This document shows, piece by piece, positions 12,071 to 39,771 of a stretch of 64,000 bases of DNA; position 1 is the stretch's first letter, and every line of letters begins with the position of its first letter. This DNA comes from Zhaonella formicivorans (lineage in GTDB: Bacteria > Bacillota > DUOV01 > Zhaonellaceae). The notes below the pieces were generated by a model. It was not told where the DNA came from, did not search any database, and saw nothing but the letters and a program-made list of their open reading frames with translations. The position numbers and the translations under genes were made by a program. The stretch spans positions 248,001-312,000 of the forward strand of contig NZ_CP085524.1 in assembly GCF_004353525.1 (NCBI RefSeq). The letters run 5' to 3'.

Positions 12071-12183
12071 CCTAAAGGACTGGAATTTCTACGCATTGTG
12101 TAAACACAACGCTAGAAATTCTGGCGCCCTAAAGGACTGGAATTTCTACGCATTGTGTAAACACAACGCTAGAAATTCTGGCG
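12071..12183. repeat. Tandem duplication of a 56-base palindromic unit
   Basis: Two identical 56-base units (12071-12126 and 12128-12183), period 57. Each contains a hairpin with arms GAATTTCTA...TAGAAATTC and an inner TTGTGT/ACACAA stem. The units end three bases before the stop codon side of the pseudouridine synthase gene. The layout resembles REP/BIME elements or small palindromic mobile units rather than a terminator. Confidence 0.88.
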
Positions 12184-12186
12184 CGC

Positions 12187-15907: not shown

Positions 15908-15973
15908 GATTACTGTATTTAATCTTTGAATAGCTCTTAAACTAGTATTTGTACCTGGAAGGCGGTGAATAGC

Positions 15974-17635
15974 TTGGGAAAAATCAAGATAACTTATAGC
16001 GACGGAACTGTTCAGGAAGTAGGGGAAGGTACTACGCTGCTGGAATTAAGTAAGGAAGCGCAACAAAACTATAAATCAACCATAGTAGCTGCAAAAGTTA
16101 ATAACGCGGTTAAAGATCTGAATTTTGAGCTAAAAGAAGATGCTCTGGTGGAATTTTTAGATCTTACTACTGATGACGGTTTCCGGATTTACCAGCGCAG
16201 CCTCTCGTTTTTGCTCATTAAAGCCGTGGGTGAGATCTTTCCTGAAGCGAGAGTAACGATAGAACATTCCATCAGCAAGGGTTTATATTGTGAGCTGCAT
16301 AATAAAGACCCGATTACCGAAAAAGATGTACGAAAAATTGAAAACCACATGCGGGAATTGGTGGAACAGGATATAACGTTCCACAAAGATACGGTCCCCT
16401 TGAACGAAGCGATTAAACTATTTGAAAAAGAAGGGCAAATGGATAAGGTCAGGCTTTTGAAATACCGGGAAAAACCAACCATTACCATCTACAGCTGCGG
16501 CTGGCTCAGGGACTATTTTTATGGTTATATGGTGCCAAGCACCGGTTTTCTAAAAAAATTTGAATTGAAGTATTACATGCCCGGCTTTATACTGCGTTAC
16601 CCCGACAAATTTAATCCTGAGGCAATCCCGGAGTATAAGGAGCAGCCCAAGCTGTTCAGCGTCTTCCGGGAAGCGGAAAAATGGGCACGTATTCTGGAAG
16701 TTACCGATGTAGGTGCGTTGAATGATCAGATTGCGGCAGGGCATGCGGATGATTTGATCAGGGTTTCAGAGGCTTTCCACGAAAAAAAGATTGCCCATTT
16801 CGCCGATTTAATCACTAAAGAGCGGGACCAAATCCGCATAATTTTGATTGCCGGTCCGTCTTCTTCGGGTAAAACCACTTTTGCCCAGCGGTTATCCGTG
16901 CAGCTCAGGGTAAACGGGGTAAAGCCCATTTCCATTTCTTTGGATGACTATTTTGTATCTCGGGATAAGACCCCTCTGGATGAAAAAGGCGAACCGGATT
17001 TCGAGGCGCTGGAGGCAATTGAATTGGACTTGTTTAACGAGCACCTGACAAAACTCATTCAGGGCGCTGAAGTGGAACTGCCTACTTTTAATTTTGTAAC
17101 GGGGCAGCGGGAATACAGGGGCAGGAAAATCAGAATTAAAAGAGATCAGCCCATTATCATCGAGGGGATCCATGGCTTAAATGAGAAGCTAACGGCTGCA
17201 ATTCCCAGAGGCAGCAAATTCAAAATATACGTCAGCGCATTAACTCAGTTGAACATTGATAGCCATAACCGGATTCCCACTACTGATGCCAGGATTATTA
17301 GAAGAATTGTACGGGATAGCCAGTTTCGGTCCCATGATGCCTTAAAGACGATTAAAATCTGGCCTAAGGTGAGAAGGGGTGAGGAAAGGAATATTTTTCC
17401 TTTCCAAGAGGATGCCGATGTGATGTTTAACTCTCACTTGGTCTATGAACTGGCGGTACTCAAAAGATATGCCGAGCCCCTGCTCCAGGCTATCGATGCC
17501 CAGCAGCCTGAATACTCGGAGGCTAAAAGACTGCTCAAGTTTTTGTCCTTCTTTTTACCAATGGAAGATTTTGAGGTGCCAAACAATTCAATTATCAGGG
17601 AGTTTATCGGTAATAGCAGTTTCTGCCGTGAATAA
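15974..17635 (+). CDS. TGS-domain nucleoside kinase (uridine kinase-like)
   Basis: About 553 residues in three parts: an N-terminal TGS domain (residues 1-60), a threonyl-tRNA-synthetase-like second domain (about 60-190, SKGLYCELHNKD), and a C-terminal uridine-kinase-like P-loop domain (IAGPSSSGKTTFAQRLS near 290, then DDYFVSR and EGIHGLNE). This fusion is common in Clostridia and is called nucleoside kinase; the true substrate is uncertain. Start: TTG at 15974, five bases after AAGGCGGTGA, a near-complete anti-SD match. The GTG at 15965 lies inside that ribosome site. Confidence 0.9.
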   Translation: MGKIKITYSDGTVQEVGEGTTLLELSKEAQQNYKSTIVAAKVNNAVKDLNFELKEDALVEFLDLTTDDGFRIYQRSLSFLLIKAVGEIFPEARVTIEHSISKGLYCELHNKDPITEKDVRKIENHMRELVEQDITFHKDTVPLNEAIKLFEKEGQMDKVRLLKYREKPTITIYSCGWLRDYFYGYMVPSTGFLKKFELKYYMPGFILRYPDKFNPEAIPEYKEQPKLFSVFREAEKWARILEVTDVGALNDQIAAGHADDLIRVSEAFHEKKIAHFADLITKERDQIRIILIAGPSSSGKTTFAQRLSVQLRVNGVKPISISLDDYFVSRDKTPLDEKGEPDFEALEAIELDLFNEHLTKLIQGAEVELPTFNFVTGQREYRGRKIRIKRDQPIIIEGIHGLNEKLTAAIPRGSKFKIYVSALTQLNIDSHNRIPTTDARIIRRIVRDSQFRSHDALKTIKIWPKVRRGEERNIFPFQEDADVMFNSHLVYELAVLKRYAEPLLQAIDAQQPEYSEAKRLLKFLSFFLPMEDFEVPNNSIIREFIGNSSFCRE

Positions 17636-17768: not shown

Positions 17769-18185
17769 TCAGCTTTGATGTATTTTATAGCTATATTCGA
17801 TGGCTGCAGTTTTATTAACCATGTGCAGCACACTGCAGTATTTTTCCTGGGTTAAGTCAACAGCCCTCTTTAACTTATCTTCAGGCACATCTTTACCCCA
17901 GATTTCATATAGTAGAGAAACCCGGGAGAACGTCTTGGGGTGTTCCTCCTTCCTTTCGGCGGAAATGGAGATTTTAAAATCATCATAGCTGACGCGCATT
18001 TTTTCCAAGATTGATACTACGTCCATACCAGTACACCCGCCTAAGCCGATGAGGACAAGTTCCATGGGTGACGGTCCTCGATTCTCACCTCCAACTTCAG
18101 GCCGGGCGTCAGCCATGACCCGGTGGCCGGAACCGGACAGTCCTTCGAACGCCATTTTACCCTTCCAGGAGACAGTAACGTGCAT
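17769..18185 (-). CDS. OsmC family protein (YhfA-like)
   Basis: 138 residues with the OsmC/Ohr fold. The two conserved cysteines are visible in LGGCTGMDVV and KYCSVLHMV; in characterised members they reduce organic hydroperoxides. The spacing and the GENRGPSPMELVL stretch match the YhfA subgroup rather than Ohr. Start: ATG at 18185 after GGAGGG. Confidence 0.9.
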   Translation of the reverse strand: MHVTVSWKGKMAFEGLSGSGHRVMADARPEVGGENRGPSPMELVLIGLGGCTGMDVVSILEKMRVSYDDFKISISAERKEEHPKTFSRVSLLYEIWGKDVPEDKLKRAVDLTQEKYCSVLHMVNKTAAIEYSYKIHQS

Positions 18186-18263: not shown

Positions 18264-18294
18264 AAGTAAAAAGCCACCGGTTTGCAGTGGCTTT
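18264..18294 (-). terminator. Intrinsic terminator of the UGA-containing small gene
   Basis: On the minus strand AAAGCCAC / GTGGCTTT with a nine-base loop followed by TTTTTACTT, 24 bases after the TAG at 18318-18320. It supports a transcript that runs past the in-frame UGA to the TAG. Confidence 0.82.
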
Positions 18295-18317: not shown

Positions 18318-18473
18318 CTACTTTGCTTCAAAACAGGAAGGGCAGTTTCCGTCGCTTATGCTGTTGGAGCTGAACTCAGCTACCGGTAATTTGCCTCAGC
18401 CGCCCCAACGGTCATCGTCTTCCCCTCCGCCTAAAAACCATTTGCAATCTGTAAAGCGGCATTTTGTACTCAT
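18318..18473 (-). CDS. Candidate small selenoprotein, 51 residues with in-frame UGA at codon 26
   Basis: A strong ribosome site (GGGAGG) six bases before ATG at 18473. The frame reads MSTKCRFTDCKWFLGGG, an acidic DDD stretch, WGG, then UGA at 18398-18396, and continues without further stops as GKLPVAEFSSNSISDG, then CPSC and FEAK, to TAG. A terminator follows 24 bases later. Cys5, Cys10, Cys44 and Cys47 could form a zinc or redox site, with codon 26 as a fifth position. The UGA is followed by a hairpin with bacterial SECIS geometry (see 18366-18398). Alternatives: a 25-residue peptide ending at UGA, or a recent nonsense mutation of a Cys (UGC) or Trp (UGG) codon. Translation through UGA needs selA, selB, selC and selD, which are not in this window. 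Confidence 0.6.
18366..18398 (-). promoter_or_regulatory. Candidate bacterial SECIS element
   Basis: Counting the U of UGA as 1, an 11-base spacer (4-14) is followed by GG (15-16), an unpaired U at 17, then AGCUG, an AGUU loop, CAGCU, and CC that pairs with the GG. The spacer length, GG/CC base and bulged U17 match what is known of the E. coli fdhF SECIS. The apical loop carries G in its first two bases, and 19 bases separate the UGA from the loop, within the usual bacterial range. Confidence 0.55.
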
Positions 18474-18620
18474 TATTTAACCTCCCTGCATTAAACTAAT
18501 GATCTAGTAATTCATTAATAAGATTTACAATCGGACAATAATTATGCAGAATTATTTTCTTGACAACATTTAATTTGCTATACTTATAGAGTTAAAGTTG
18601 CAAGGGAAGGGGATTTTACA

Positions 18621-19445
18621 TTGTATATCGGAGCTCACATTTCAATTGGCAAAGGATTTGCCGCTGCAGTGGAACAGGCTCGGGAAATAGGGGGCAATAC
18701 CATGCAGTTTTTTAGCCGCAATCCCAGGGGTGCAGCAGTTAAAGCATTGGATCCAAAGGATGTGGTAATGACAAAAGATAAGATCCAGGCCTATGAGTTC
18801 GGACCTATTGTGGCTCATGCCCCGTATATTATTAACCTGGCTTCTCCTAAAGATGATCTTTGGCAACTGGCCATAAAAGTAATGACAGAGGACCTGGCAC
18901 GGATGGATACAATCGGGGTACCTTTTTTGGCAGTACATCCGGGCAGTCATGTAGGAAAAGGACTGGACTATGCCACTAAGCGCATTGCAGATGCCTTAAA
19001 TCTTATCCTGCAGGGAGAAAACGTTACAATGCTGCTCTTGGAGACTATGGCCGGTTCGGGGACAGAAGTGGGCCGGTCTTTTTCCGAAATAGCTCAAATT
19101 ATTTCCGGTGTAGAGCATCAGGAAAAAGTAGGAGTTTGCTTGGATACCTGTCATTTGTTTGGTGCGGGGTATGATGTCAAGGATAATTTAGATCAAGTTT
19201 TGACTGAGTTTGATGCCGTTATAGGGTTGGACAGGCTGAAGGCGGTACATCTCAACGACAGCTTACAGCCATTAGGCAGCAAAAAAGACAGGCATGCTAA
19301 TATTGGCGAAGGGTTAATTGGGGCCGAGGCCCTAGGCCGTGTTGTGCTGCATCCTAAATTAAAGCATCTGCCTTTTTTGCTTGAGACTCCAGGTGGTTTG
19401 GAAAATTACCGGCGGGAAATTCAGTTCTTTCAATCGCTGTTATAA
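18621..19445 (+). CDS. nfo: Deoxyribonuclease IV (AP endonuclease)
   Basis: 274-residue endonuclease IV, a three-metal TIM-barrel enzyme that cuts abasic sites in base excision repair. Start YIGAHISIGKG with the metal-binding His, then the VHPGSH, LLLETMAGSGTE, GVCLDTCHLFGAG and VHLNDS signatures and a C-terminal LLETPGG, all metal-site segments of the family. Start: TTG at 18621 with GGAAGGGG upstream. It stands alone, divergent from the UGA-containing small gene. Confidence 0.95.
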   Translation: MYIGAHISIGKGFAAAVEQAREIGGNTMQFFSRNPRGAAVKALDPKDVVMTKDKIQAYEFGPIVAHAPYIINLASPKDDLWQLAIKVMTEDLARMDTIGVPFLAVHPGSHVGKGLDYATKRIADALNLILQGENVTMLLLETMAGSGTEVGRSFSEIAQIISGVEHQEKVGVCLDTCHLFGAGYDVKDNLDQVLTEFDAVIGLDRLKAVHLNDSLQPLGSKKDRHANIGEGLIGAEALGRVVLHPKLKHLPFLLETPGGLENYRREIQFFQSLL

Positions 19446-38310: not shown

Positions 38311-39771
38311 ATGCTAGATGTCAGAACATTCAACACCTCTAAGTTTCAAACCCTGACCCAGGAACAGATGCAGGAAATTCATTCTGCCAGTCTGTCCATC
38401 TTGGAAGATATCGGCACTGTAGTACATCACGATGAAGCAATTGCTTTACTTAAAAAAGCGGGTGCATATGTGGAGAACGGTAGCCGTGTCTACATTCCCA
38501 GTTCGCTGGTTGAATGGGCTATCCGTACCGCTCCGTCCCGTGTCGTAATTTACGACAGAAACGGTAAGCCTGCTATGTTTTTGGAAGGATATAAGGTTTA
38601 TTACGGAACTGGTTCCGACTGCCCTAATATTTTGGATAGCTTTACCGGTGAAAAGCGAAAATTTTTATATAAGGATGTAGAGGATGCCGTTAAACTGTGT
38701 GATTATTTACCCCATATCGACTTTGTAATGTCAATGGGTTTAATTTCTGATGTGAGAAAAGAAGTCACTTACCAGCATGAGTACGCTGTCATGCTGCGCA
38801 ACAGCACCAAGCCTCAGACCATTACCGCCGCTGACAAGCAGTCCCTGGACGACATCGTGGAGATGGCCGCTGCCGCTGTAGGTGGACGGGAAGTATTAAG
38901 CAGGAAGCCCATTTTTGTCCTGTATGATGAGCCCAGTTCACCGCTGCAGCATTCTACCACAGCTTTGGATAAACTGCTTTACATGGCTGAACACAGGCTG
39001 CCAACTAACTATGCACCGGGCATGATGGCAGGAGCAACCGGCCCCATCACCATGGCTGGAGCTATTGCCCAGGCTAATGCGGAAATTTTAACCGGTTTAG
39101 TAATTCATCAATTAAAGAATCCGGGTGCACCCTTCGTCTTTGGCGCAGGAATGTCTCCGATGGATATGGTCAGCATGCAGCCGACATATTCTTCTCCGGA
39201 AGCCATGATGGAACAAGCCGGCATTTGCGATATGGCCCGTTATTATCAACTGCCGTCCTGGGGATTTGCCGGCTGCAGCGCTTCCAAAGTTGCTGATGAG
39301 CAGGCAATTCTTGAAGCTTCTCAATACATTTTAATGGCGGCCCTTTGCGGCACCAACTTGACCCACGATGTTGGTTACCTGGAATTTGGCTTAACCTACT
39401 CCTTTGACCTGCTGGTAATGTGCAATGAAGTTATCGGTCAGGTAAAAAGAATGATGCAGGGCATTTGTGTGGATAAAGAGTATCTTGCGGTAGATGCCAT
39501 TCGCAGGGTAGGCCCGGGTGGACATTTCTTGGGTGACGAGCATACTTTCAACCACTTCCGTGAGAACTGGAAACCGGATATTACTGACAGAAACACATAT
39601 GAAGTATGGTTGGCCAACGGCGGCACAACCATGGGTCAGCGGGCTAAAGCCAAGATTCAATATATCTTAGAGAACCATAAACCTGAGCCAGTTACTTCTG
39701 AAGTTGATGCAGCTATAGACAGAATCCTTGAACGGGCCGAGGGCAGGGTTGGCAACAAAAAAGCAGTGTAG
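38311..39771 (+). CDS. MttB-family corrinoid methyltransferase, non-pyrrolysine, copy 2
   Basis: 486 residues, again MttB superfamily without an internal amber codon. Signatures: SLSILEDIGTVVHHDEA, WGFAGCSASKVADEQAILEAS, NLTHDVGYLEFG, and RRVGPGGHFLGDEHTFNHF near the C-terminus. Start: ATG at 38311 with AAGGAGG upstream; a frame start at 38215 would place the sigma-54 promoter inside the gene. Probably the first gene of a unit with the PLP enzyme, glpK and the third MttB gene. Confidence 0.93.
   Translation: MLDVRTFNTSKFQTLTQEQMQEIHSASLSILEDIGTVVHHDEAIALLKKAGAYVENGSRVYIPSSLVEWAIRTAPSRVVIYDRNGKPAMFLEGYKVYYGTGSDCPNILDSFTGEKRKFLYKDVEDAVKLCDYLPHIDFVMSMGLISDVRKEVTYQHEYAVMLRNSTKPQTITAADKQSLDDIVEMAAAAVGGREVLSRKPIFVLYDEPSSPLQHSTTALDKLLYMAEHRLPTNYAPGMMAGATGPITMAGAIAQANAEILTGLVIHQLKNPGAPFVFGAGMSPMDMVSMQPTYSSPEAMMEQAGICDMARYYQLPSWGFAGCSASKVADEQAILEASQYILMAALCGTNLTHDVGYLEFGLTYSFDLLVMCNEVIGQVKRMMQGICVDKEYLAVDAIRRVGPGGHFLGDEHTFNHFRENWKPDITDRNTYEVWLANGGTTMGQRAKAKIQYILENHKPEPVTSEVDAAIDRILERAEGRVGNKKAV

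Follow-up and report, generated by a model that had tools for sequence, protein, structure and literature searches.

A 51-codon reading frame with a UGA at codon 26 raises the question of whether that UGA ends translation or is decoded as selenocysteine (Sec), in which case the frame would specify a very small selenoprotein. The frame lies in the window, by which is meant the whole 64,000-nucleotide stretch of DNA that was analyzed, and the answer depends on what surrounds the UGA, on what became of it in related genomes, and on whether the host has the apparatus to decode it.

The locus and its orthologs

On the minus strand, GGGAGG is followed after 7 nt by an ATG at 18473, 24 more sense codons, the UGA, 25 sense codons, and a TAG at 18320-18318, with a terminator-like sequence, AAGCCACtgcaaaccgGTGGCTTTTT, 24 nt past the TAG; this is letter for letter the arrangement of ribosome site, start, internal UGA, stop, and terminator claimed in an earlier note on this DNA (Table 1). 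With the UGA read through, the frame yields MSTKCRFTDCKWFLGGGEDDDRWGG-U-GKLPVAEFSSNSISDGNCPSCFEAK. The loop of the terminator-like hairpin is 9 nt, which is beyond the limits of the terminator scan, and similar hairpins also follow both orthologs described below, while a TATAAT-like -10 element is conserved upstream of all three orthologous genes. Elsewhere in the window, adjoining a pseudouridine-synthase-like gene, a 57-bp unit, CCTAAAGGACTGGAATTTCTACGCATTGTGTAAACACAACGCTAGAAATTCTGGCGC, occurs in two exact tandem copies (12071-12184), and an inverted repeat, GAATTTCTACGCATTGTG / CACAACGCTAGAAATTC, lies inside each copy.

Table 1. Features of the candidate selenoprotein locus and its neighbors, in window coordinates
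Feature	Position	Strand	Basis or remark
Candidate selenoprotein gene, 51 codons, ATG ... UGA26 ... TAG	18318..18473	minus	Sequence; TGA at matching codon in G001 and G002 orthologs
UGA codon 26, proposed to be read as Sec	18396..18398	minus	Kept in 3/3 genomes of the class; UGA of FDH and SelD decoded in the same genomes
SECIS-like hairpin (GG, bulged U17, AGCUG-AGUU-CAGCU, CC)	18366..18384	minus	Folding; three genomes alike in inner 4 bp, U17, and loop G24
Shine-Dalgarno GGGAGG	18481..18486	minus	Sequence; GGAGG-type site also precedes both orthologs
Putative promoter TTGTCA ... CATAAT/AATTAT	18538..18566	minus	Consensus match only
Terminator-like hairpin AAGCCAC/GTGGCTT + T run	18266..18294	minus	By eye
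Endonuclease IV (nfo, AP_endonuc_2)	18621..19445	+	Divergent neighbor in all three genomes
Uridine-kinase-like (PRK) gene	15965..17635	+	Convergent neighbor in all three genomes
OsmC-like gene	17769..18185	minus	Between the selenoprotein and uridine-kinase-like genes; outside the conserved unit

The 51-residue protein was used as the query against 101 genomes, namely the window's own (G000) and 100 relatives, and besides the self-match there were two real matches with a single internal TGA apiece, one in G002 (E 4e-12) and the other in G001 (E 1e-8). These are the only two other available genomes of the class, and each represents another genus. Their products, MISKCQFKDCKWFDPGDDEDWSGG-U-GKLPVAEFSPQKKLDDRPPCFEAIK and MSRDCNFSKCKWFIGGEDDDGWGG-U-GKPIAGVSCENNNQECPFLEIK, are 63 and 59% identical to the window protein, and the neighboring endonuclease IV is similarly conserved at 66-67%. 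In all three genomes the UGA stands at the equivalent codon (25/26) and is followed by a stop 22-25 codons on, and the motif around Sec is GGUGK(L)P(V/I)A in each. The earlier note had held that homologs ending at codon 25, or carrying Trp or random codons at position 26, would speak against its reading; both homologs continue beyond codon 25 and end at similarly placed stops, and position 26 is UGA in three of three. It had also envisaged homologs with either UGA or Cys at that position, and here the expectation was borne out in part, with UGA homologs in two genomes and no Cys homolog at the Sec position in ~880 other genomes of the phylum.

The gene order is common to all three genomes as well: the uridine-kinase-like and selenoprotein genes are convergent, and the selenoprotein gene and endonuclease IV are divergent. 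The OsmC-like gene occurs in the window's genome only and is absent at the equivalent place in both relatives.

The hairpin downstream of the UGA

Past the UGA, an 11-nt spacer leads to GG (positions 15-16), U17, AGCUG (18-22), the loop AGUU (23-26), CAGCU (27-31), and CC (32-33), and the predicted minimum free energy (MFE) structure, at -9.0 kcal/mol, has exactly this GG/U17/5-bp/AGUU layout, in agreement with the spacing, unpaired U17, 5-bp stem, AGUU loop, and GG/CC base that had been claimed for it. The folding energy alone is unremarkable compared with chance (z -1.1), and of the 1855 TGA triplets in the window, 251 (~14%) satisfy a loosely defined bacterial SECIS with MFE <= -7.5. The strict fdhF geometry, defined as two base pairs, U17, 5 bp, a 4-nt loop, and fixed spacing, is found at 2 of the 1855, the UGA of the selenoprotein gene and a TGA at 38649 on the + strand, whose stem is A/T-rich and whose fit is probably due to chance. 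SECIS features by themselves would not carry the selenoprotein claim, which rests on genome comparison.

A published SECIS rule calls for a hairpin 16-37 nt downstream of the UGA, a loop of 3-9 nt that has G as its first or second nucleotide, an upper stem of at least 4 bp, and MFE <= -7.5 (PMC13188914), and it accommodates the hairpins of the window's genome and of G001 (-8.2 kcal/mol). The distance under this rule is 19 nt, or 16 in G001, where the hairpin lies 3 nt nearer the UGA because one codon is missing. In G002 the stem and loop are present, with only 4 bp, and they are not the MFE fold of their 41-nt stretch, for which there are competing folds. All three genomes agree in the inner stem (GCUG/CAGC), in U17, and in the loop nucleotide G24, and since the inner 4 bp never vary, no covariation is demonstrable among them. 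The formate dehydrogenase (FDH) genes of the same three genomes have hairpins at comparable spacing past their own UGA.

Readings of the UGA codon

The window's gene and its G002 ortholog differ at 5 first, 5 second, and 14 third codon positions upstream of the UGA and at identical numbers of each downstream, with p 0.01 for the third-position excess on either side. All four differences in the first nine codons past the UGA are synonymous, indels after the UGA preserve the frame, and the alignment of the two post-UGA peptides beats 20,000 of 20,000 shuffles. As a control, the in-frame translations past the true stops of three neighboring orthologous genes are unconserved and mostly soon meet stops. 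By these comparisons, it is the persistence of the read-through protein in two further genera that decisively exceeds chance; with the more distant G001 the post-UGA conservation is modest, the two pairings being equaled or beaten by 227 and 128 of 20,000 shuffles. That the similarity with G001 is only moderately above shuffles would suit a UGA that is a true stop, which would close a conserved peptide of 24-25 residues and make the hairpin a 3' UTR or regulatory element, and the upstream peptide is indeed conserved in its own right. Such a stop is nevertheless quite improbable, given that residues are conserved on both flanks of the UGA and, after it, up to a final Cys, F, E, and K ahead of the next stop, that substitutions downstream are of the synonymous type, that the frame is kept across indels, and that the post-stop control sequences are unconserved.

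The window's genome contains selA, selB, selC (tRNA-Sec), and selD, all four of the genes that the earlier note had proposed to look for, and of which a missing selB or selC would have spoken against its reading; selA, selB, and the tRNA-Sec gene lie together on one strand (G000:C1:2633791-2637307). A tRNA-Sec with a UCA anticodon, selA, UGA-containing formate dehydrogenases, and a UGA-containing selD, so that SelD is itself a selenoprotein, are found in three of three genomes; selB is shown for the window's genome. An open frame past the UGA, taken alone, would fit a UGA that reassignment or suppression has given to Trp or to some other standard amino acid, yet we give this almost no credence, since the same genes use ordinary UGG Trp codons, UGA still acts as an ordinary stop in the window, where it ends 6 of 41 long frames, and both a full Sec machinery with tRNA-Sec and a SECIS-type hairpin after the UGA are present.

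We infer that the UGA is decoded as Sec, the reading originally put forward, which the orthologs, the conserved UGA, the hairpin, and the Sec machinery strongly support. A small gene, presumably monocistronic, would encode a 47-51-residue acidic cytosolic selenoprotein; the ribosome would arrive at the UGA at codon 25/26, SelB carrying Sec-tRNA(UCA) would bind the hairpin ~14-30 nt downstream and insert Sec, and translation would then run a further 22-25 codons to a TAG or TAA. Counting against Sec decoding are the small number of sequences, three in all and all of one class, the lack of demonstrable covariation, the short G002 hairpin, the modest post-UGA conservation with G001, and the failure to find a Cys homolog; most selenoprotein families have Cys homologs, which is usual and not obligatory. 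On balance we are highly confident that the 51-codon gene is a selenoprotein gene, a confidence that covers the identity of the gene and not its function.

Possible function and relation to known families

Searches with a profile of the three sequences gave no credible match in the remaining 396 genomes of the phylum sample or in the classes of G003, G024, and G089, and none in viral contigs; the window protein used as query matched no plasmids. Weak HMM matches in L026, L042, L068, L077-L080, L082, L083, and L085 were translated and rejected, as they had no shared Cys pattern, were fragments of other frames, or had internal stops. Among 84,980 species genomes, a motif-based scan, which is insensitive to distant relatives, returned as its sole match the G002 record (DUOV01000222.1, a 'Clostridia bacterium' MAG). 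The family thus appears, as far as these sequence searches reach, to be confined to one bacterial class.

Searches of Pfam, NCBIfam (June 2026), PHROGs, and PDB sequences gave no match for the selenoprotein, NCBIfam giving none even at E 10; a Pfam LysM14_C match (E 0.025, below the cut-off and for one member only) is attributed to chance, as are the sub-threshold Rfam matches that were the only ones near the gene. The 2026 catalog lists 119 prokaryotic selenoprotein families (PMC13188914, Table 1), among which the present protein is absent, and no listed family has GGUGK or a C-x4-C ... U ... C arrangement. Nor is it recognizable among the new selenoprotein families of PMC12013277, which have Cys homologs, none having been found for the present family. 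The statement in the earlier note that no selenoprotein family of this form had been described therefore stands against Pfam, NCBIfam, PHROGs, PDB, and the 119-family table, and the protein very likely represents a new family that relies on ordinary bacterial Sec decoding. If so, one selenoprotein family without known relatives is added to the catalog of ~119. Standard annotation would end the gene at the UGA, and homology-based annotation misses it because of its tiny size and because neither a Cys homolog nor a family model is available for comparison, which suggests that very small Sec-only families may hide in the intergenic DNA of Sec-decoding anaerobes. At ~50 residues, the protein would also lend itself to studying the role of Sec in a minimal protein.

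Four chalcogens are invariant across the three sequences (C5, C10, U25/26, and a C-terminal Cys) and are spaced C-x4-C-x14/15-U-x15-20-C. The sequences also have a conserved CKWF, GGUGK, and a stretch of acidic residues, and their pI is 4.5-4.8; no hydrophobic signal segment is evident by eye, and the protein is probably cytosolic. An AlphaFold model built from the three sequences had a pLDDT of 45, too low for a fold search. Of the earlier description of a tiny Cys-rich metal or redox protein, small size and Cys content stand, and the metal or redox function may be considered in two forms. Because the Sec of known selenoproteins is mostly catalytic, its most likely role here, at slightly better than an even chance, is to supply the reactive selenol in a small redox protein of the thiol/selenol type, where it could pair with one of the three Cys residues in a selenenylsulfide. 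The main alternative, possible though rather doubtful, is that Sec, instead of acting as a catalytic selenol, helps to hold a metal or Fe-S cluster as one ligand of a four-chalcogen site resembling that of HiPIPs. High-potential iron-sulfur proteins have D-x-W-x-G-C-x-x-x-P around their third ligand, which the D-x-W-G-G-U-x-x-x-P context of Sec recalls, and a weak hhalign match falls exactly on this context; the four invariant C/U residues and their spacing would also suit such a site. The match is non-significant, however (probability 2%, P 0.02), there is no Pfam or PDB match, the first gap is x4 and not x2, and the mostly catalytic use of Sec elsewhere also argues against a ligand. Somewhat less probable still is the fuller proposal of a Sec-only family of ~50 residues, restricted to one deep clade, whose four-chalcogen site binds a metal ion or Fe-S cluster with Sec as a natural ligand.

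The likeness to high-potential iron-sulfur proteins (PF01355) and similar small four-Cys [4Fe-4S] proteins comprises four chalcogens, an aromatic residue past the second Cys, Trp-Gly before the third ligand, and Pro after it. The selenoprotein differs from the C-x2-C-x~15-C-x~13-C of PF01355 in having C-x4-C and Sec as the third ligand, and membership in PF01355 was rejected, the spacing being different and no profile match significant. In its proposed decoding, the locus resembles the E. coli FdhF-type systems, with a UGA, an immediately downstream hairpin at fdhF spacing, U17, a small loop whose first or second nucleotide is G, and selABCD in the window's genome, whereas its loop, AGUU or GGGU, is unlike the GGUCU/GGUUU type in the FDH genes of the same genomes. 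As a protein it is closest in kind to those of the 119 families that are small, Cys-rich Sec proteins of unknown function, such as the CC/Se motif family NF041239, hypothetical protein DG (NF049953), and the selenobacteriocin TIGR04081, which has SGUG (PMC13188914).
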